Assembly (NCBI RefSeq): GCF_030547005.1 | Contig: NZ_JAUOPN010000009.1 | Coordinates: 62,001 to 126,000 of the forward strand | From: Maribacter sp. 1_MG-2023 | Lineage (GTDB): Bacteria > Bacteroidota > Bacteroidia > Flavobacteriales > Flavobacteriaceae | DNA: 64,000 bases | Reading direction: 5' to 3' | Shown here: positions 11,358 through 44,402 of the stretch, piece after piece | Position numbering within the stretch: position 1 is the stretch's first letter | Layout of the letters: every line of letters begins with the position of its first letter | Notes under the pieces: generated by a model | Database searches by the model: none | What the model saw: the letters and a program-made list of their open reading frames with translations, nothing else | Told to the model about the DNA's origin: nothing | Position numbers and translations under genes: made by a program

Positions 11358-11450
11358 CGCAGGTAATGCTATCTTTTTGTAGTACTTTTTTTTCAATCCG
11401 ATTTGAAAATAACGCCTAATTTCATTCCAATAACTAGTTCTTAGTTTTAT

Positions 11451-11801
11451 TTAACTATCTCCTCTACCTAAATATGCACGAATTGAAGATATTTTACCTT
11501 CAGAATTAATGGTTATCACATCTACAACATAAAGTATCTCAGTGGAGTCTACTATGATTTTCAATTCAGCCGCTACGGTGTTTTTGTTTTCAAAAGTAGA
11601 TGGCACTTCAATTTCTATTTTATCTGCATTTTCAAAATTTTTACGTGTTTCTGCAAGAGCATTTTTTATTCCTTCAACACGAATTTTCCAGTCACGTAAT
11701 ACAATGTCTTCAGAAAACATTTTTTCGATATTGTTTAGATCCTTTTCCGCATATTTTTTCAAATATGAAAGACATACTTCCTTTTTTGATATCTTATTCA
11801 T
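11451..11801 (-). CDS. NTF2/SnoaL-like small protein
   Basis: The 116-residue protein shows the pattern of SnoaL-like NTF2-fold proteins: YLKKYAEKDLNNIEKMFSED at the N-terminus (helices, then the D-I-V-L-R-D strand), then alternating strands (AAELKIIVDS, VVDVITINSEGKI). Such folds are enzymes (isomerases, cyclases) or binding proteins. No active-site residue can be named with confidence. It follows the RidA gene on the same strand after 60 bases. Confidence 0.75.
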   Translation of the reverse strand: MNKISKKEVCLSYLKKYAEKDLNNIEKMFSEDIVLRDWKIRVEGIKNALAETRKNFENADKIEIEVPSTFENKNTVAAELKIIVDSTEILYVVDVITINSEGKISSIRAYLGRGDS

Positions 11802-11861
11802 AGGCAGGTTTTCTTATATTGACTTCGATTTAAAATTGAAAATTTACTTCCGTTGATTATG

Positions 11862-12350
11862 CTATTTTTTTTTAATGGTAAATGAAGCTGTTAGTCCTAC
11901 ACTAAAATTTCGAGGAAGCTTTTCAACTCCAAAAATTGCTCTAGAATGTTTACCTTTTTCTTTAAGCACCTTTACGAATAAGTCTGAAGCCCCATCAACT
12001 ACTTTGGGCGATTCATCCCAATCTTTACCCGATTGAAAGTAGGCGTCTATATGGTTTAGTCCAACAACTTTATCAAACCCTATTTTCTTGTTCACTTGAG
12101 CTAAAACGTTCAAGGCACATAATTCCATCGCCTTATAACCATCTTCGGTCGAAATTTCATTTCCTAAACGCCCTTGAAATTTAAATTCTTCATTTAAAAT
12201 TGGAAATTGAATAGCTATGTAGGCTATATTTTCTCTAACGTTTACAGAAACGTAACTTCCTCCTGGCGTTGATACATTAGGTAGTTGAAGTCCGTTAGTT
12301 TTTAATATTTCGATTGGGCTCATTTGTTTTATACACCTAGTTTTATACAA
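11862..12350 (-). CDS. RidA-family (YjgF-like) protein
   Basis: The 162-residue protein resembles the longer RidA-like branch: LPNVSTPGGSYVSV near the N-terminus, FKFQGRLG at the place of the family's substrate loop, and a C-terminal DGASDLFVKVLKEKGKHSRAI-type stretch typical of the fold. The family often hydrolyses reactive imines/enamines. A divergent member of 150-160 residues like this is common and not always a deaminase. It lies 3 bases after the gene at 12354-12815, so both are one unit. Confidence 0.8.
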   Translation of the reverse strand: MYKTRCIKQMSPIEILKTNGLQLPNVSTPGGSYVSVNVRENIAYIAIQFPILNEEFKFQGRLGNEISTEDGYKAMELCALNVLAQVNKKIGFDKVVGLNHIDAYFQSGKDWDESPKVVDGASDLFVKVLKEKGKHSRAIFGVEKLPRNFSVGLTASFTIKKK

Positions 12351-12353
12351 TTT

Positions 12354-12815
12354 TTATTTAAAAATCAGTTTTAACTTTCCGTTTTCAGGAATCAAATTCC
12401 ACTTTTCGCACAGTTGGTCAAATTCAGATTTCATTTTTTTAATATCTGTTAAATTCATATTCGGAACTCTAATTCCACTGATATTTTGAGCTTCCCAATT
12501 TATTAATTCAATGAATTGTTCAGTTTTCGCTGCTCCGGAACCAATAGATTGAAGATTTCTCGCCATAATTTCAGATAGCCAAGTTTCAGAGTCTAAACTT
12601 TTTATTATTTCTTTATCAGATAGTTCTTCTATGGTCATTCCAGATTTAACTTTTCCGTAAAAACCATTTTCTAATTTAAATACTTTTTCAACAACATAGT
12701 GAGCAATATCGTGATTCGGGATATCAGGTCCAAGATTTATACTTGTCAAGGTTCCATCTTTTCTTTTACAAGTTAAGGTGTTTCTATTTTTACCTTTTGT
12801 GATTATTATTTCCAT
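12354..12815 (-). CDS. Conserved protein of unknown function
   Basis: The 153-residue soluble protein begins with a short beta-rich part (EIIITKGKNRNTLTCKR) then DIPNHDIAHYVVEK, a His/Asp-containing helix, and ends with a helical part (MKSEFDQLCEKWNLI). I do not recognise a named family. It is directly coupled to the RidA-like gene (3 bases) and preceded by a sequence resembling the cassette edges seen at 41.9-42.7 kb, which suggests the pair could have been acquired. Function unknown. Confidence 0.7.
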   Translation of the reverse strand: MEIIITKGKNRNTLTCKRKDGTLTSINLGPDIPNHDIAHYVVEKVFKLENGFYGKVKSGMTIEELSDKEIIKSLDSETWLSEIMARNLQSIGSGAAKTEQFIELINWEAQNISGIRVPNMNLTDIKKMKSEFDQLCEKWNLIPENGKLKLIFK

Positions 12816-13119
12816 TTCTCAAATTGCATACAACAATAGTCTATATAAAAATAATGTTATTTGTACTTCCAATATATAACATATATCTTTTATAAATTTT
12901 TAATGATCGAGAAGATTCTATGAATTAGATAACAATAGTTTCAGCTAGCCTAAAATACAGTTCAGCTATCAGATAGTACAATTCAGAATATATTTTTTCT
13001 AAATGGTTAGAAAAGGCTTCATGTTTGCTTTTATCTAGGCATTTACAGAAAGAGGTATAGGTCTAAAATGAAATTCCTAATTTTAAAAATTAGAAACCAA
13101 TCAATTTAAGCTTACAAAC
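12816..13119. other. 304-base spacer between divergent genes
   Basis: No gene is visible. At 12825-12845 the minus strand reads GACTATTGTTGTATGCAATT immediately upstream of the gene at 12815; it resembles the segments before the accessory genes at 42.0 and 42.7 kb. The rest is A+T-rich and should hold the promoter of the kinase gene, but no convincing TAnnTTTG element was found. Confidence 0.5.
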
Positions 13120-14442
13120 ATGAGTAGTTTTTTAAAGGTAGTAAGAATAGCAATAATTATAGCCTTGGTTATGGAACTTGTTCGGTTGCTATTATCTGAT
13201 TGGGAAAGCATAACATTATATGGCGAATTACAATTTACTGGTATAGCCTTGCTGTATTCTTTTGTGCTATCTATGGTTAATATGTATTTCAGCGACTATA
13301 TCTCTCAAAAGTATACATGGGAGAATGAAACGCAAAAACGATTATGGTACGGTGCCGCGGGCTCTATTGTACTTACTGTATTGGCGTTTGGTGCTGTACG
13401 CGCGTTTACTGAAATCTATATATTTGGTAAAAGTTTTGAACAGTACGTAGCCGGGGAAAGGATACAATATTACTTCTATGCGCTGTTGGTAACCCTAGTA
13501 GTTTCATTGTTTTTACACGCTTTCTACTTCTATAAAGCCTTACAAGATACCAAGGTAAAAGAACAAAAAATTATTGCAGGTTCAGCATCTGCAAAGTTCG
13601 ATGCTCTGAAGAATCAGTTAGACCCTCACTTCCTTTTTAATAGCTTAAATGTATTGACCAGCCTTATAGAAGAAGATCCTATGCAGGCGCAAAAATTTAC
13701 TACTTCGCTATCTAAGGTGTACAGATATGTATTGGAGCAGAAGAGCAAAAATCTTATTTCTGTTGACGAAGAACTAAAGTTTGCAAGAACTTATGTGCGA
13801 CTTCTAAAAATGCGTTTTGAAGATAGTATCGTATTTGAAATTCCTGATGAGGCACTAGATCCTGAGGCGAAAATAGTACCATTATCCCTACAGTTGTTAT
13901 TAGAGAATGCAGTGAAGCATAATGTGGTAACTTCTTCAAAACCACTACACATTAGAATATATGAAGAAGACGGGTATTTGTACGTGGTCAACAATTTACA
14001 AGAAAAACAAGTAGTTAAAAAGAGTAGTGGTGTGGGGCTGCAGAACATTCGTCAACGTTATGCCATTCTTACTAAAAAGGAAATGCAGATTTTTAAGACC
14101 GCTAAAGAGTTTAAAGTGCGTTTACCTATGCTTACAAATGCAATTTCTTTTCGAGAAACACAAGATTCCCATATAAGCGCCAAGCGCTATGAGAAAGCAA
14201 AAGAAAGGGTAGAACTCATTAAAGGATTCTATGGTAACCTTACTTCTTATTGTATTGTTATACCATTTCTTGCCTATATAAATTTTAAGACTACCAGTTT
14301 TGTTTGGGTTATTTTCCCTGCTATTGGTTGGGGTATTGGTTTAATAGCCCATGGTTTAAAAGCATATGGTTATAATCCGCTGTTTGGTAAAGGCTGGGAA
14401 GAAAGAAAAATAAAACAGTATATGGAAGATGATAGATTCTGA
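13120..14442 (+). CDS. LytS-type sensor histidine kinase with C-terminal 2TM domain
   Basis: The 440-residue protein has four predicted membrane helices (about 5-25, 38-60, 78-100, 117-138), then a His_kinase-type dimer/phospho-acceptor part (DPHFLFN, H170), an N-box (LLENAVKHN, N263) and a G-box (SSGVGLQNIRQRY, 302-314). There is no large sensor domain. Residues 357-438 are an added 2TM domain (two helices between a Y-x-KAKERV start and a GWEERKIKQY end), very like the free protein at 15061-15342. It begins a cluster of a PNPOx-like gene, five 2TM genes and a LytTR regulator and should phosphorylate that regulator. Confidence 0.93.
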   Translation: MSSFLKVVRIAIIIALVMELVRLLLSDWESITLYGELQFTGIALLYSFVLSMVNMYFSDYISQKYTWENETQKRLWYGAAGSIVLTVLAFGAVRAFTEIYIFGKSFEQYVAGERIQYYFYALLVTLVVSLFLHAFYFYKALQDTKVKEQKIIAGSASAKFDALKNQLDPHFLFNSLNVLTSLIEEDPMQAQKFTTSLSKVYRYVLEQKSKNLISVDEELKFARTYVRLLKMRFEDSIVFEIPDEALDPEAKIVPLSLQLLLENAVKHNVVTSSKPLHIRIYEEDGYLYVVNNLQEKQVVKKSSGVGLQNIRQRYAILTKKEMQIFKTAKEFKVRLPMLTNAISFRETQDSHISAKRYEKAKERVELIKGFYGNLTSYCIVIPFLAYINFKTTSFVWVIFPAIGWGIGLIAHGLKAYGYNPLFGKGWEERKIKQYMEDDRF

Positions 14443-14464
14443 AGAAATTTTAAACGGAAGCACT

Positions 14465-14917
14465 ATGAAGCTAACAAAAAAGATAAAAGCTGCTATAAGC
14501 GATAGTGTATTATGCTGGTTGGCAACATCTTCTGCTGATAACATACCCAATGTGTCACCCAAAGAAATATTCAGTTGTTTTGGAGAGAATATGATTATAG
14601 TAGCAAATATAGCATCACCACAAACAGTAAAAAATATTCAACAAAATAAACACATCTGTATCAGCTTTATAGATATTTTAAAGCAGAAAGGCTTTCAATT
14701 GAAAGGAGAGGCTGAAATTATTACAGCAGCTAGTAAAGAGTACCCTAAGATGGAAAATGTATTGTTGGTGCTAACAGAAGGCAAATTCCCTTTTAATTCA
14801 ATAACCAAGATTAACGTTACCAGTGCTAAGCCTATAATTGCTCCTAAATACATACTGTTCCCCGAAACTACAGAAGAGGACCAGATTGCCAGCGCAAAGA
14901 AAAACTACGGATTTTAA
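14465..14917 (+). CDS. Pyridoxamine 5'-phosphate oxidase-like FMN-binding protein
   Basis: The approximately 150-residue protein has the split-barrel PNPOx pattern: LCWLATSSADNIPNVSPKE at residues 14-32 and ISFIDILKQKGFQLKGEA in the middle, as in the small flavin-binding family that reduces or oxidises unknown substrates. The ATG at 14465 is preferred; an earlier in-frame ATG at 14429 lies inside the end of the kinase gene. It starts 22 bases after the kinase stop, in the same unit, which is an unusual place for such a gene. Confidence 0.8.
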   Translation: MKLTKKIKAAISDSVLCWLATSSADNIPNVSPKEIFSCFGENMIIVANIASPQTVKNIQQNKHICISFIDILKQKGFQLKGEAEIITAASKEYPKMENVLLVLTEGKFPFNSITKINVTSAKPIIAPKYILFPETTEEDQIASAKKNYGF

Positions 14918-15060
14918 GGTCTCTCAATAGTCTAAGAACATGCTTTCTACAATTCAGTCGTAAAAAATTACAACTGGGTATTTCATTTTTTCAAAACCTG
15001 TACGATCTGCCGAAATTTGAAGTATAGAAATAAATTAGTAATCACTAAAACTTTAAAAAG

Positions 15061-15342
15061 ATGGAATCAAACTTCACAACAGACAGCAATTATAAGTATG
15101 AAAAGGCAAAAGAAAAAGTACAAGCTATAAAAGGCTTTTACGGTAATTTATTGGCCTACTGTATCGTCATACCATTTTTAGCATATATCAATTATAATAC
15201 AACAAGTTTTCTTTGGTTTATTTTTCCGGCACTTGGTTGGGGATTTGGTCTATTGATGAACGGACTTTATGCCTTTGACTATAACCCATTATTCGGTAAG
15301 AATTGGGAAGAAAGAAAGATCAAAGAATTCATGCAAGAATAA
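15061..15342 (+). CDS. 2TM-domain protein (copy 1)
   Basis: The 93-residue protein is a single 2TM domain (Pfam 2TM type): an amphipathic start (YEKAKEKVQAIKGFYGNL), two membrane helices joined by a short loop (NYNTTS), and a charged exit FGKNWEERKIKEFM. It is strikingly close to the C-terminus of the kinase at 13120-14442, including the shared IPFLAYIN and YNPLFGK. The family's molecular role is unknown; it is often next to LytS/LytTR genes. It begins the tandem array after a 143-base spacer. Confidence 0.9.
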   Translation: MESNFTTDSNYKYEKAKEKVQAIKGFYGNLLAYCIVIPFLAYINYNTTSFLWFIFPALGWGFGLLMNGLYAFDYNPLFGKNWEERKIKEFMQE

Positions 15343-15363
15343 TAACCTAAAAGACTAAAGATC

Positions 15364-15654
15364 ATGGAAAACACAAAATATACAAGAGCAAAAGCAAGAG
15401 TTGAAAAAATTAGAAAATTTTATAGAAAAGTAGCGTCGGCTATCGTAACCATTATAATTGTAGCGACAATCAATTATTATTTTAATGAATGGAGGAATGC
15501 CTGGTTTCTTTGGGTAGTATTCGGTTTAAGTATTAGCTTATTTTTTAAAGCAAATAAAATCTTTAACTTGAATCCGTTTACGGGCAGAGACTGGGAAGAA
15601 AGAAAATTACAAGAGTTTTTACAACAAGAGGAAAATACAAGAAGATGGAGCTAA
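15364..15654 (+). CDS. 2TM-domain protein (copy 2)
   Basis: The 96-residue protein has the 2TM arrangement: YTRAKARVEKIRKFYRK, helix (VASAIVTIIIVATI), short loop with WRNAW, second helix, and GRDWEERKLQEFL. It is more divergent than copy 1: the first loop is polar and the first helix begins with a Lys-rich stretch. The stop overlaps the start of copy 3 by ten bases, so the two are translationally coupled. Confidence 0.88.
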   Translation: MENTKYTRAKARVEKIRKFYRKVASAIVTIIIVATINYYFNEWRNAWFLWVVFGLSISLFFKANKIFNLNPFTGRDWEERKLQEFLQQEENTRRWS

Positions 15655-15983
15655 ACGAATTTGAACAATCGGATAAATTATTAAGAGCCCAAAAGAAGGT
15701 AAAAGAGATAAAGGGGTTTTATATTCACTTACTTGTTTACGTACTCGTAAATCTGTTTATTATGACAATTACCATTATGGGGATTATGTCTGGCGGAGCT
15801 TCGTTCACAGAGGCTTTATTTAACATCGGTACTTTAACTACTCCGTTTTTCTGGGGAATAGGGTTGGCATTTCATGCCGCTAAAGTATTTGGATATAGTC
15901 CTTTCTTTAGCAAAGATTGGGAGCAGCGCCAAATCAATAAATATGTAGAGCAAGATGAACGAGATGCTGAAAAATATAGATAA
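15645..15983 (+). CDS. 2TM-domain protein (copy 3)
   Basis: The 112-residue protein carries LRAQKKVKEIKGFYIHLLVYVLVN, a loop longer than in copies 1-2 (MSGGASFTEALFNIGT) and a second helix ending in FSKDWEQRQINKYVEQD. Copies 3 and 4 share the extended loop and the FWGIGLAFHAAKVF/FWGIGLVFHAVKVF second helix, so they arose from one another more recently. The start overlaps the end of copy 2; the stop abuts copy 4 (TAATATG). Confidence 0.88.
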   Translation: MELNEFEQSDKLLRAQKKVKEIKGFYIHLLVYVLVNLFIMTITIMGIMSGGASFTEALFNIGTLTTPFFWGIGLAFHAAKVFGYSPFFSKDWEQRQINKYVEQDERDAEKYR

Positions 15984-15984
15984 T

Positions 15985-16323
15985 ATGGAAATTTCAATGG
16001 TAGATAAGTCAGATGCATTAGCAAATGCAGAAAAGAAGGTTAAAGATTTAAAGGGTTTTTATTTGCATTTTTCCTTATACATTTTGGCAAACATTATTAT
16101 TGTTGCAATGAATGTGATGATAAGAATATATGAAGGGGAATCTTTATATGATGCATTGGTGAATTTTGGCACTTTTATAACGCCCTTTTTCTGGGGAATA
16201 GGCTTGGTTTTTCACGCAGTCAAAGTCTTTGATTACCATCCGTTTTTTGGTAAAGACTGGGAAGCTCGGCAAATAAGTAAATATATGGAGGAAGATAAAC
16301 GTGAATTTGAAAAATATAGATAA
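15985..16323 (+). CDS. 2TM-domain protein (copy 4)
   Basis: The start at 15985 (MEISMVDK) follows the stop of copy 3 with one base between (TAATATG); an earlier in-frame ATG lies inside copy 3. The 112-residue product has ALANAEKKVKDLKGFYLHF, a long acidic loop (YEGESLYDALVNFGT), a second helix closely matching copy 3 and FGKDWEARQISKYMEED. Its position and coupling point to equal production with its neighbours. Confidence 0.88.
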   Translation: MEISMVDKSDALANAEKKVKDLKGFYLHFSLYILANIIIVAMNVMIRIYEGESLYDALVNFGTFITPFFWGIGLVFHAVKVFDYHPFFGKDWEARQISKYMEEDKREFEKYR

Positions 16324-16324
16324 T

Positions 16325-16690
16325 ATGGAAACTGAACGAGCAAACAATTATCTTTTTAATGGAGAGGACAGTAGTTTTTCTAAGTATGAAAGAGCAAAAG
16401 AGAAAGTGGCAAGTATAAAGCGCTTCTATAATCATGTATTGGTTTTTCTGATCATAAATATCATGTTGTACTTCTTAAGACATAAGTTCGTTTTCATTTT
16501 GGTAAGTAAAGAAGCATTCGGTAATCCTGAGTTTTTAGAGTGGATAAACTGGAATGTCTACGGTACCACCATTGTTTGGGGGATAATACTGGCTATTCAT
16601 GGAATTATTGTTTATGGCAATATTTCAGGATATTTGAAGAGGTGGGAAGAACGTAAGATTCAGAAATACATAAATTCATATAACGATTAA
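16325..16690 (+). CDS. 2TM-domain protein (copy 5)
   Basis: The start at 16325 again follows the previous stop as TAATATG. The 121-residue protein has KYERAKEKVASIKRFYNHV, a first helix, a loop of about 25 residues (with FGNPEFLEWINWN), a second helix (IVWGIILAIHGIIV) and an exit RWEERKIQKYI. It lacks the FGK.W motif found in the others, having ISGYLKRW. It is followed after 34 bases by the LytTR regulator gene. Confidence 0.87.
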   Translation: METERANNYLFNGEDSSFSKYERAKEKVASIKRFYNHVLVFLIINIMLYFLRHKFVFILVSKEAFGNPEFLEWINWNVYGTTIVWGIILAIHGIIVYGNISGYLKRWEERKIQKYINSYND

Positions 16691-40890: not shown

Positions 40891-40996
40891 CCTTAGAATT
40901 TATTAAATAAGAGACGATTACTATTGTCCATATATATTTATATTTAGGGATATGTACAATTGTGTGCATATATAATAGTTGTGGATAATTTGAGAA

Positions 40997-41506
40997 ATGA
41001 AATTAATTGAACACAGAAGAATAATAAATAAGAATCCTAAAGCATACGAAACGGATTTAGAATCTGACCGATTAGTAAAATCAATTATTAATCATATTAG
41101 GAATGATTTTTCAAATGTTAGATTTGACCAGCAGAAAAGAGGAATTTTAAGAGAAATAGTAATTCTACTTTTTGAAGCTCAAGAACACAGACCTTTTTTT
41201 CACGTTGAAGGAACTGAATTACCTCTTTGCTGGAATAGACCTTCAGATTGGAATATTGATTATATAAAATATGAATGGGGACATCTACTATCTCAAAATC
41301 AAATGCCTGAAAAAAGTAGTTCAATAGAAAATATTGGACTTTACTCTGCAAGATGTAATCAACATATTCAAAGTAGTATGAACATCCAAGAACTTATGGT
41401 TTACGGAGGACTTTTAGCTCAAAGAATATCCAATGTTTTGACTAACAGAAGAATATTATTTGATTCAGAGAAGTGGAAGAACTTAATAAGTAATCTTTAT
41501 GAATAA
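40997..41506 (+). CDS. HNH-like protein of unknown function
   Basis: The 169-residue protein is not firmly recognised. Its region 85-125 has WNIDYIKYEWGHLLSQNQ, then ENIGLYSARCNQHIQSSM, which mimics an HNH layout (aromatic-Gly-His, Asn, Cys-Asn-x-His) without the paired zinc Cys residues. The gene is followed after only five bases by a classical HNH nuclease gene, so the pair probably acts together. It begins the accessory zone and is A+T-rich. It could be a nuclease, inhibitor or structural partner. Confidence 0.6.
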   Translation: MKLIEHRRIINKNPKAYETDLESDRLVKSIINHIRNDFSNVRFDQQKRGILREIVILLFEAQEHRPFFHVEGTELPLCWNRPSDWNIDYIKYEWGHLLSQNQMPEKSSSIENIGLYSARCNQHIQSSMNIQELMVYGGLLAQRISNVLTNRRILFDSEKWKNLISNLYE

Positions 41507-41511
41507 TTAAT

Positions 41512-41835
41512 ATGGCTAATAAATGGGGAATTCCAATTGAAGTGGAAAATTTAGTATTATCAAGAGATAAAGCCTGTGTTTATTGTGGAGTAACTTTTAC
41601 TAAAAATGATAATTCAAGAAAAACAAGGCAATCTTGGGAACATATAGTTAATGATATAAGAATTAATGGAGCTGATAATATTACACTTTGTTGTATGTCT
41701 TGTAATGCAAGTAAAGGAGCTAAATTGTTAGAAATTTGGCTTGAAAGTAAATATTGTAAAAATAAAGGAATTACAAAAGAAACTGTTGCTTCAATAGTAA
41801 AAGAAGCGATTGAAAATACGCCTAAACTGAAATAA
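41512..41835 (+). CDS. HNH endonuclease
   Basis: The 107-residue protein has the HNH (WHH-like) core: CVYCG near residue 22, SWEHI, N-I-T-L-C-C-M-S-C-N-A-S-K-G near residues 61-75. Paired Cys residues bind structural zinc and the His/Asn form the metal-dependent nuclease site. It is small, as in phage and mobile-element nucleases. It is coupled to the previous gene (5-base gap) and lies in the cassette-like zone; target unknown. Start is ATG at 41512; a TAATTAATATGG context fits. Confidence 0.8.
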   Translation: MANKWGIPIEVENLVLSRDKACVYCGVTFTKNDNSRKTRQSWEHIVNDIRINGADNITLCCMSCNASKGAKLLEIWLESKYCKNKGITKETVASIVKEAIENTPKLK

Positions 41836-42010
41836 AAAATTATGCACAACAATGGCTATAAGTTATTGCTTGTTCTCGCCTACTTTGGAAATTCCTGCGG
41901 AATTTCCAAGTTTATGTGTACTTGCAATGTTAAGTGCTAAATCACGCAACTACTCATACACAAGACCGTTTGGTGTTGTTTGAAAAATCCGATAAGAATA
42001 TAAAATCAGA
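41836..42010. repeat. Cassette-like spacer with internal palindrome
   Basis: The segment has ends in inverted orientation (ACAACAATGGC near 41848 against GACCGTTTGGTGTTGT near 41964), a near-perfect 11-bp hairpin at 41885-41909 (GGAAATTCC TGC GGAATTTCC core) and the 11-mer ACACAAGACCG at 41958. The same 11-mer recurs before the gene at 42689. It looks like a recombination or folding site between genes, similar in spirit to attC, but it lacks the canonical GTTRRRY core. Confidence 0.55.
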
Positions 42011-42481
42011 ATGAAAAAACACAATTACGAAATAAAAGTTGAATGGACTGGAAACGAGGGAAACGGAACTCTTAATTACAAGTCTTATAACAGAAACCAT
42101 ACTATCATAGCTGATGAAAAGAATAACGTTATTAATGGTTCGTCTGACCCTTCATTTTTAGGAGATAAGACAAGATACAATCCAGAAGACCTTTTTTTAT
42201 CTTCCTTGTCTGCCTGCCATATGCTTTGGTATTTGCATTTATGTTCCGTACATAAAATTATAGTAACTGAATATATAGACAACGCTACAGGAATAATGGA
42301 AGAAACAAAAAATGGAAGCGGAAAATTTGCTGAAGTTACACTTAACCCGAAGGTAAAAGTTACAGAAGAAAATATGATTGCAAAAGCAAATGAATTACAC
42401 GAAGAAGCTAATAAAATGTGCTTCATCGCAAATTCTTGTAACTTTAAAATTGGACATATACCGAATACAACAATTGAATAA
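42011..42481 (+). CDS. OsmC-family protein
   Basis: The 156-residue protein has the OsmC arrangement with NPEDLFLSSLSACHMLWYLH (first redox Cys C69) and ANKMCFIANSCNF (second, C137), as in peroxidases that reduce organic hydroperoxides. Extra Cys at 78 and 143 are unusual. It sits alone between cassette-like spacers. Probably cytosolic. Confidence 0.85.
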   Translation: MKKHNYEIKVEWTGNEGNGTLNYKSYNRNHTIIADEKNNVINGSSDPSFLGDKTRYNPEDLFLSSLSACHMLWYLHLCSVHKIIVTEYIDNATGIMEETKNGSGKFAEVTLNPKVKVTEENMIAKANELHEEANKMCFIANSCNFKIGHIPNTTIE

Positions 42482-42688
42482 AAACGGCATAAAGTAAGTT
42501 GTTTAGATTATAGCTAATTTGTGATAAACCAAAAGATTATAGCCTATTTAAAAAGAGAAAATTAAGAACAAAGTATAATTACTCGGAACTGTGTTAATTT
42601 GGAAAGTTAGTGTCCTTATACACGCTGTGTTACACACACAAGACCGCTAGCAGTAATAAGAAAAAATCATAGAACTAATTAAGAGCAT
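42482..42688. repeat. Cassette-like spacer with shared 11-mer
   Basis: No gene. It contains ACACAAGACCG at 42636-42646, immediately followed by CTAGCAGTAATAA. The same 11-mer lies before the OsmC gene; the following part resembles GACGTTAGCAATAATAG at 43872-43888 before the gene at 43902. Confidence 0.5.
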
Positions 42689-43798
42689 ATGAAAATAGTA
42701 AAGAAAATAGGGAAGTGGATTTTGATTTTACTGGGAGCAATTGTTATGTTAATTTTAGTTGTATTGCTAATAATTAGAATCAATAGTTATGGAGAAGAAG
42801 AACCTTTTTTAGACGAAAAGGGAGATGTACTACCAAATAGTATTGCCATGCACGAGGACATGACAATAAATGGAGTACCTCAAAGGATTACAATTAGGGG
42901 AAAAGACAAGAATAATCCCGTGCTATTAATAGTTCATGGAGGACCAGGTGCGCCAATTTTACCAGTCATATATAAACTGGCAGGGGTTGATTTGGAAGAT
43001 TTATTTACGGTGTGTTATTGGGATCAAAGAGGATCTGGATTAGCTTATAATGATAGTATACCTGATTCTTCCATTACCTTAAACCATATAGTGGATGATG
43101 GTTTGCAATTATCAGAACATTTAACAAAGACTTTTAAAAAGGATAAGATTTACATTGAAGGTTTATCGTGGGGAACTGCTGTAGCTGCTTATATGGTTCA
43201 AAAACAGCCTGAGTTATATTACGCCTATATTGGTAGTGGTCTCATGGCGAATCAATCGCTTTCTGAAGAACTATCTTATGATTTTGCAATGTCAGAAGCT
43301 GAGAAATATAATGACACTCTTTCTATTACTCAATTAAAACAAATAGGACGACCACCTTATGTTGAAAACTCAAAAAATTCAGTAACTGAAGCCTTTGAAA
43401 TAGAACGTCAAATTGTTATGAAGTATGCACCGATAAAATTAGAAACCGATTTTAATTTTATTAAAAGTATGTTTTTAGATAATGGATTAACGTTTAGCGA
43501 AAAATTTACGGATATGCTGAATAGTCCTGAATCCTACTATCCTGCAGCTATGATTTTACAACCTACCGCAATAGATATGAATTTAATGCGTGATATCCCA
43601 GAATTTAAAGTACCCGTTTATATATTACAAGGAGACAATGATCATTTTACCGAAACATCTGTGGCAAAGACTTATTTTGATTCCATTGTTGCACCATCTA
43701 AAAAGTGGTTTTTATTTGAAAATGGAACACACGGTGTGCAGATTGAATATCCAGAAAAATATCGTTCAATTTATATTAATGAAATATTGAAAAAATAA
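42689..43798 (+). CDS. Alpha/beta hydrolase (proline-iminopeptidase-like)
   Basis: The 369-residue protein has an N-terminal membrane helix (about 8-30), then a hydrolase fold: VHGGPGAPI and WDQRGSGLA near residues 83 and 110, the nucleophile in GLSWGTAVA near residue 160, an acidic residue in QGDNDHF and His in ENGTHGV. GGPG and DQRGSG are the proline iminopeptidase/epoxide hydrolase signature. It is likely a membrane-tethered peptidase or esterase, part of the accessory zone. Confidence 0.85.
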   Translation: MKIVKKIGKWILILLGAIVMLILVVLLIIRINSYGEEEPFLDEKGDVLPNSIAMHEDMTINGVPQRITIRGKDKNNPVLLIVHGGPGAPILPVIYKLAGVDLEDLFTVCYWDQRGSGLAYNDSIPDSSITLNHIVDDGLQLSEHLTKTFKKDKIYIEGLSWGTAVAAYMVQKQPELYYAYIGSGLMANQSLSEELSYDFAMSEAEKYNDTLSITQLKQIGRPPYVENSKNSVTEAFEIERQIVMKYAPIKLETDFNFIKSMFLDNGLTFSEKFTDMLNSPESYYPAAMILQPTAIDMNLMRDIPEFKVPVYILQGDNDHFTETSVAKTYFDSIVAPSKKWFLFENGTHGVQIEYPEKYRSIYINEILKK

Positions 43799-43901
43799 CT
43801 GCTTGGAGATGAAAATGAAAGGTTTGCTTACTTTTACATTAAGCCCACAATTACCCTACTTATCTTACGGAGACGTTAGCAATAATAGAATTTGAACACA
43901 A

Positions 43902-44324
43902 ATGGAAAAGAAAAAGATACATTTTGACAATATGAAAAGTTGGATTTGGATTTCTATTCTAATCCTTTCTCTGGTTCTCATTTTGACAGGAGGTTTAGAG
44001 TTATTCGAGTTTGAAAACCCAAAATTGAATAAAGGATTAAGTGTTATCGGATTTTTTCTTCAAGTCATTTATTACAGTAAAATGTTTTGGCATAAAAATT
44101 ATGTTCAATGGAACAAAAAAGGAGCTGTTATAAGAATTAACTCTTGGAGTGGAAAATCATTGAGTTTTGACCAAATCAAAAAAACTGAACTGACTGAAAA
44201 AAAGTTAATAATAACTAAAGACAACGGAAAAACAGTCACGTTTGACTTGAATGAAATAGCGGAATCTGACACACAAAAACTGAACGAAATAATAATAAAA
44301 AATACTATTGCCAATAACGTATAA
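43902..44324 (+). CDS. Membrane protein with PH-like tail (unrecognised)
   Basis: The 140-residue protein has two membrane helices (about 14-33 and 45-60) and a soluble half of alternating strands (VQWNKKGAVIRINS, SLSFDQIKKTEL, KKLIITKDNGKTVTFDL), a pattern seen in bacterial PH-like domains. No specific family named. The gene is framed by short inverted repeats (GACGTTAGCAATAATAG before and TATTGCCAATAACGT at its end), so it may be a single mobile cassette. Confidence 0.65.
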   Translation: MEKKKIHFDNMKSWIWISILILSLVLILTGGLELFEFENPKLNKGLSVIGFFLQVIYYSKMFWHKNYVQWNKKGAVIRINSWSGKSLSFDQIKKTELTEKKLIITKDNGKTVTFDLNEIAESDTQKLNEIIIKNTIANNV

Positions 44325-44402
44325 CGCAAGTAACACAAATTGGACAATGTTTGAATCTGCTCGGAATGACTAACATTAGTTCTTTACCTAATCCACCACA
44401 AA

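Follow-up and report, generated by a model that had tools for sequence, protein, structure and literature searches.

The window analysed here (64,000 nucleotides of Maribacter sp. 1_MG-2023, contig NZ_JAUOPN010000009.1, positions 62,001 to 126,000) carries an array of small unrelated genes separated by repeat-like segments, one of them at positions 41838-41980 of the window, and we asked what these segments are and which enzyme may move the genes between them. A sequence-only reading of the locus had taken the segments for boundaries of mobile cassettes unlike canonical attC, the cassette site of integrons, in which the R box is GTTRRRY. Analyses of related genomes bore this out: the copies are many, they lie beside varied genes, they share a fold, and they share a recombinase. 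In all probability the window segment belongs to a gene cassette as its attC-like site, within a Bacteroidia system that resembles an integron and whose recombinase is not the integron integrase IntI. Comparison of the loci described below shows, as judged from sequence, a cassette system with the layout of an integron and with a non-IntI recombinase adjoining many of its arrays.

Searched by BLAST, the spacer at 41836-42010 gave three matches in its own genome, and 36 of 60 relatives matched as well. The window copy (41838-41980) is one of the 51 attC copies that went into a covariance model; this model gave 20 matches in the whole Maribacter genome and, at E<=1e-5, at least 870 matches summed over 36 genomes of the genus, with one or more in 35 of the 36, both counts being lower bounds. 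The Rfam scan of the whole window gave no family over its threshold. The genes between the copies differ from one another, as had been supposed: 90 cassette proteins, sampled from a shuffled list of 253, matched 65 Pfam families, 53 of them represented by a single protein, and a few defence families, Shedu, AbiGi and KAP NTPase among them, occur among the cassette proteins. The longest open reading frame (ORF) ran with the array in 278 of 324 distinct cassettes and against it in 28, the remaining 18 having no ORF of 60 amino acids (aa); a with-array ORF was thus found in 278 of the 306 cassettes having an ORF of at least 60 aa. Median cassette length was 915 bp, and the ORF started at a median of 28 bases from the cassette start.

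The limits of a cassette were first seen by eye in the array of contig C1 (locus L050), where cassettes open with GTT and a variable stretch, whose reverse complement closes them. The complementarity extends over the 7-10 bases that follow GTT and those that precede AAC at the end of the same cassette. For 98 cassettes of 20 loci (18 from the genus, two from a second genus in its family; adjacent sites were left out if GTT or AAC was missing close to its expected position, or if they were too near to or too distant from each other) the own ends matched at 5.70/7 positions and the ends of other cassettes at 2.40/7. The corresponding values were 6.25/7 and 2.54/7 for 134 cassettes of 36 named loci (six of 140 neighbouring pairs left out), and 6.24/7 and 2.55/7 for 127 cassettes of 34 loci outside Maribacter. 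In no set was the observed sum equalled by any of 10000 permutations. The inverted ends that the sequence-only reading had noticed on the spacer turned out not to be a functional pair, since ends of the same spacer matched at 2.53/7, hardly better than the mismatched pairs (2.40/7) and far from the same-cassette value, and the spacer was no longer read as an inverted repeat. Because the complementary stretches lie at opposite ends of one cassette, only excision as a circle would bring together a complete R''-L''...L'-R' hairpin; such pairing across the gene, not the spacer, is expected of an integron cassette in circular form. Tandem cassettes that share one orientation, start at G|TT, end in their own attC and have complementary ends follow the architecture of an integron. 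The R box GTTRRRY fits 13 of 275 attC sites (4/98 and 9/177). Site lengths fall into two main classes of about 120-129 and about 185-194 bases, both of which occur within the L050 array.

The segment also has a conserved, covarying fold. Between the GTT and AAC ends the L stem has 15 pairs, 12 of which have changed on both sides with pairing retained. L-stem cells were paired in 93.0% compared with 75.5% in shuffles, and the covariation score was 0.446 compared with 0.139 (0/500 shuffles as high in either case), a test that favours the structure because the stem was derived from the same alignment. Two L-stem positions are G.T on the bottom strand, each in 46 of the 51 sequences, and the top strand would have A.C mismatches there. 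Folding with DNA parameters favoured the bottom strand in 195 of 234 sites and neither strand in seven, the figure for shuffled sequences being 43 of 80. In these models attC is a bottom-strand hairpin with a strand bias. Integron attC is described in PMC8946536 in like terms: the bottom strand is the one used, the spacer in its centre is unpaired and its terminal part varies.

No integrase had been visible to the sequence-only reading. This stands for the window, in which no relative of the recombinase was found among ORFs of at least 150 aa (phmmer, E<=1e-20), and fails for the genome, which encodes two (C1:7594-8721, that is L050, and C7:3876-5003, that is L082). The first is a 375-aa tyrosine recombinase directly before the C1 array. 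Part of the high-scoring loci of the genus and family were fetched, giving 42 distinct loci, and a tyrosine recombinase adjoined many arrays. The common type is about 375 aa long and transcribed with the array; a second type, of 272-355 aa, is divergent from it. Within each type the arrays run one way relative to the recombinase, with the single exception of L100, a diverged 252-aa recombinase with attC on both sides. Six of the 42 loci end less than 300 bp from a contig end on the array side, and attC was found in 33 of the other 36. In 30 of the 33 array loci a GTT start less than 600 bp from the recombinase paired at 5/7 or more with the end of the first cassette. A palindrome precedes this paired start in most loci, and CAATT|GTT often comes next; the palindromic attI lies 44 bp from the recombinase stop in 11 of the 30 loci; the divergent recombinase type has another sequence in the attI position. 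By its position, this candidate attI beside the recombinase is the cassette insertion point of an integron architecture.

At least 543 relatives of the recombinase were confirmed and 80 named loci examined. Using a profile re-trained on those loci, attC was found downstream of the recombinase in 42 of the 48 named loci with at least 1.5 kb there (three of the 48 are Maribacter); downstream, 177 sites had the orientation of the recombinase and none the opposite, and nine sites lay upstream. Among the six loci without a profile attC, L193, L205 and L210 were matched by the covariance model at 30-42 bits, and L228, described below, has cassettes with attC of another sequence; no attC was found in L162 and L230, each with at least 1.5 kb downstream of the recombinase. 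The contig ends within 1.5 kb after the recombinase in 32 of the 80 loci, so that draft genomes probably under-count the system. The suggestion that similar segments occur in other marine flavobacteria proved sound. The hosts include Arenibacter, Aquimarina, Winogradskyella, Psychroflexus, Gillisia and Aequorivita, as well as metagenome-assembled genomes (MAGs) of Saprospiraceae and Prolixibacteraceae, and most of the attC sites shown are from Flavobacteriaceae, the others from one Crocinitomicaceae MAG (L194) and a few MAGs whose naming stops at class or phylum. A lake MAG (L228) has five chained cassettes at 11366-16514 with the same end pairing and sites of about 121 bases; their attC sequence is unrelated to the Maribacter model, the layout is alike, and the recombinase ORF has 544 aa.

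The recombinase scored 237.3 bits against NF040815 (cut-off 220), the XerA model whose NCBI title also names integron integrase, and 210.8 bits against the integron integrase model TIGR02249, under the cut-off of 265. The IntI insert was measured as the distance between the motifs KGxxxR and HxLRH. This distance was 58 aa in 13/13 recombinases of type A, 6/6 of type B and 13/16 named recombinases (one other at 21 aa, two not measurable), 100 aa in 15/18 IntI (one at 65, two not measurable) and 66 aa in 4/4 XerC/D. In a tree of 65 proteins the 18 IntI rows formed one clade (support 100/99) and 41 recombinases of the array family, some without a shown array, formed another (90/91); seven rows had long branches, L100 fell outside both clades, and the tree is silent on a separate origin of two integron kinds. 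The best fold matches of the recombinase model were XerA (5hxy, Z 23.8) and IntI4 (2a3v, Z 20.1). Without the IntI insert, outside the IntI clade and with an R box that is rarely GTTRRRY, the recombinase is not an IntI. None of the 36 genomes of the genus had an IntI over the TIGR02249 cut-off; in the wider GTDB phylum 84 of 296 genomes did, and among the matches listed one such genome (G095) belongs to the class of the window.

Most members of the recombinase family have an N-terminal domain of about 100 aa. It gave no Pfam match over cut-off in the five members scanned, nothing convincing against PDB sequences (best E 0.25) and no Foldseek match at E<=0.001. The nearest structure to its model was the archaeal XPB N-terminal damage-recognition domain (Z 6.2, root-mean-square deviation 2.2 Å, 57 residues), which is below the trust level. 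A HARP-like fold was considered and set aside, the SMARCAL1 HARP domain standing at Foldseek ranks 5 and 7 with E 0.60 and 0.74 and Z 3.9, too weak to be kept. Two members of 272 aa lack the domain, one of them with an array (L039) and the other without (L095), so that not every member can need it. It is conceivable, though we lean slightly against it, that this is a second kind of integron, arisen from a XerA-like recombinase independently of IntI, which would read folded attC through the added N-terminal domain and not through the IntI insert, and which would be the usual integron of Flavobacteria and other Bacteroidia.

The window locus itself has the following features, in window positions.

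40949-40980, + strand: attI-like site, imperfect palindrome ATATGTACAATTGTGTGCATAT, then ATAATA|GTT
40979-41968, + strand: cassette 1 (intact), two ORFs and its own attC
40997-41506, + strand: cassette 1 ORF a, 169 aa, no Pfam match at E<=0.01
41512-41835, + strand: cassette 1 ORF b, 107 aa, weak HNH match under the Pfam cut-off
41838-41980, - strand (bottom strand modelled): attC-like site, covariance model 118.4 bits, E 2.5e-25
41969-42646, + strand: cassette 2, with an OsmC-like gene at 42011-42481
42557-42658, - strand: degraded attC-like site, 25.8 bits, E 4.8e-4, GCT replacing GTT at 42646
42689-43798, + strand: alpha/beta hydrolase gene, common to G011 and G003 at the same locus
43870-43888, + strand: possible remnant right end of an attC, GAGACGTTAGCAATAATAG
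43902-44324, + strand: gene at the distal end of the array, common to G011 and G021

The sequence-only reading had put the start of the array at 41836; the start lies earlier, at 40978/40979, downstream of a tricorn-protease-like gene, where the crossover at the attI-like site would fall between 40978 (G) and 40979 (T). This site is identical to the attI of L091 at 26 of 31 bases, and its layout, a palindrome and then GTT, is also found at many recombinase-adjoining attI sites in the genus. Cassette 1 starts with GTTGTGGATAATTT, which matches the reverse complement of its end, GTTGTGCATAATTT, at 13 of 14 positions. In its attC-like site (41838-41980) the AAC of R'' is at 41848-41850 and the GTT of R' at 41968-41970, and three of the 15 L-stem pairs are non-standard; the perfect 11-bp hairpin seen earlier inside the 41836-42010 spacer was confirmed. 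Likewise, the window has exactly two copies of ACACAAGACCG, at 41958-41968 and at 42636-42646 (the mean over 100 dinucleotide shuffles was 0.00 matches), the copies ending 42 bases 5' of two unrelated ORFs (42011 and 42689), and the reported likeness of CTAGCAGTAATAA to GTTAGCAATAATAG is there, with GTT at 43875 compared with GCT at 42646. The end of cassette 2 no longer pairs with its own start (best 3/7). The first window cassette is intact, and the later, older ones are decayed. The hydrolase gene (42689-43798) may be resident at the locus or may be an old cassette, and the distal gene (43902-44324) is read as a probable old cassette; the possible remnant at 43870-43888 was not matched by the attC covariance model. 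With no recombinase adjoining the attI-like site, present activity would have to come in trans, and the recombinases of contigs C1 and C7 could act in this way on the window array.

Comparison of genomes gave signs of cassette movement. G022, G021 and G011 are homologous to the window locus as far as ATAATAGTT or ACAATAGTT, and each of the three then has a different first cassette at that same GTT; the distance to the next shared stretch is 3.4 kb in the window, 4.9 kb in G011 and 9.8 kb in G021. The near genes are not common to G011 and G021 and the far-end gene (43902-44324) is, as would be expected of an array that takes up new cassettes at attI. The copy of the window locus in G021 agrees with the attI of L091, which stands beside the G021 recombinase, at 28 of 31 positions. 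Two arrays far apart on one contig of G032 both contain an 868-bp cassette, at 100% identity; it is the first at attI in one of them, and identity ends one base to its left and four to its right. Nearly whole copies in another locus were found for 35 of 334 cassettes, part of these being overlapping fetches of one place. Entire cassettes recur in contexts that are otherwise unrelated; for the single pair compared at base level, homology ends at G|TT. A short cassette stands several times in one array of L088 (7701-10120), 91-94% identical to a copy in another genome.

Elements of another sort were seen within some arrays. In L041 (2663, 7120 and 13820, minus-strand coordinates), and also in L034 and L038, the left half of attC is replaced by a short end, TTGTGCAACAGGCACA, and transposase-like genes stand beside the attC sites with this end in L041 and L034. 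Another element ends in TCAAACTTAAGCCGT (L034, L046). Both look like insertion sequences targeting attC, as some insertion sequences do in classical integrons. The array transposases are presumably IS1182-like and IS110-like.

In the reading that we prefer, the recombinase would bind the folded bottom strand of attC, as IntI does, cut attC at G|TT and insert the cassette at attI. The same layout would be left by a canonical integron remnant, a cluster of attC sites lacking integron-integrases (CALIN), with cassettes moved by an ordinary IntI since lost, and true IntI does occur in the wider phylum, in the 84 genomes counted above. Yet attC is present in 35 of the 36 genus genomes, with IntI over the cut-off in none, another recombinase adjoins the arrays, and few sites (13 of 275) fit GTTRRRY, which makes a CALIN very improbable. 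That the repeats are miniature inverted-repeat transposable elements (MITEs) or other non-autonomous transposons, the cassette appearance being a by-product, would agree with repeats that are short, palindromic and many per genome and with transposase-like genes within some arrays. This is hardly credible, however, when the recurring unit is repeat plus gene and ends at G|TT, when the variable 7-mers pair across the gene and not the repeat, and when the 177 downstream sites keep the orientation of the recombinase with none opposed. The cassettes might also be integron-like with an adjoining recombinase that only maintains or resolves them, another enzyme such as XerC/D doing the insertion. XerC/D-like genes do occur in the genus and some arrays, that of the window included, have no adjoining recombinase; the adjacency and fixed orientation of the recombinase elsewhere, and a palindromic attI exactly 44 bp from its stop in 11 of 30 loci, make this arrangement unlikely.

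Several observations count against the preferred reading, an integron-like system with a non-IntI recombinase. The evidence for recombination is comparative only, and one window cassette alone (40979-41968) has ends that still pair. The end match was 5/7 or less in 28 of the 98 and 14 of the 134 cassettes. Related recombinases in L085, L087 and L095 had no attC in the fetched stretch; the paired start of L064, L094 and L078 lies 321-491 bp from the recombinase with no palindrome seen, and L100 and L101 have attC and no clear attI start. The attC profiles were built from, or re-trained on, the genomes analysed, so that divergent sites would be missed. Of 247 Bacteroidia genomes, 127 encode wider relatives of the recombinase (E<=1e-60), and a de novo chain of three or more cassettes was found in one of 20 such loci (L282). 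Chains of two were found in L274, L279, L281, L283 and L288, and shuffles also reached two in four. The de novo test needs exact 7/7 pairing and is insensitive, L229 with its five covariance-model matches giving a chain of one. The wider recombinase family is therefore not claimed as a cassette system. Relatives on viral contigs (80 kept) mostly match only the residues from about 94 on, at 36-50% identity; a Persicobacter plasmid recombinase is 42.6% identical, with no chain of two beside it.

Integron surveys search for IntI and canonical attC. Should the inferred mechanism hold, cassette platforms that such surveys may miss would be present in many Flavobacteria of the sea as well as in some other Bacteroidia. 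The tandem-cassette arrangement is found in many marine relatives of Maribacter, where classical integrons are hardly known. The cassettes bear varied accessory genes, with the Shedu and AbiGi defence families among them. The recombinase would further offer a natural comparison, a tyrosine recombinase using a folded single strand without the IntI insert. No earlier description of the system was found, judging by titles and the opening of abstracts, in a literature set that lacks all preprints and most subscription papers.

The IntI insert is held essential for integron function in the accessible part of Smyshlyaev et al. 2021 (PMC8138268), where it is also said not to be fully conserved in the 'Integron-like' subgroup of tyrosine recombinases; relatives without the insert have thus been seen before, and the same part of the text describes no cassette arrays or attC for them. 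The Maribacter-type recombinase shares its catalytic and core-binding domains with XerA, XerC and XerD; unlike these, most of its members have the N-terminal domain of about 100 aa and adjoin cassette arrays. It differs from the integrases of IntI integrons in lacking the insert and in falling outside their clade, and its sites differ in an R box of GTT plus variable bases, in conserved bottom-strand G.T wobbles and in an attI that is mostly a palindrome, the main type of recombinase being transcribed with the array. IntI integrons of the wider phylum (e.g. Salinibacter ruber M1, PMC9024848, as far as its available text goes) are alike in general architecture and differ in that their IntI exceeds the TIGR02249 cut-off. 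With IntI integrons, sedentary chromosomal ones and CALINs included, the system has in common tandem cassettes in one orientation, G|TT junctions and an attI beside the recombinase, an R''/L''/L'/R' hairpin with bottom-strand bias and unpaired spacers, and the greatest variability in the cassettes closest to attI.

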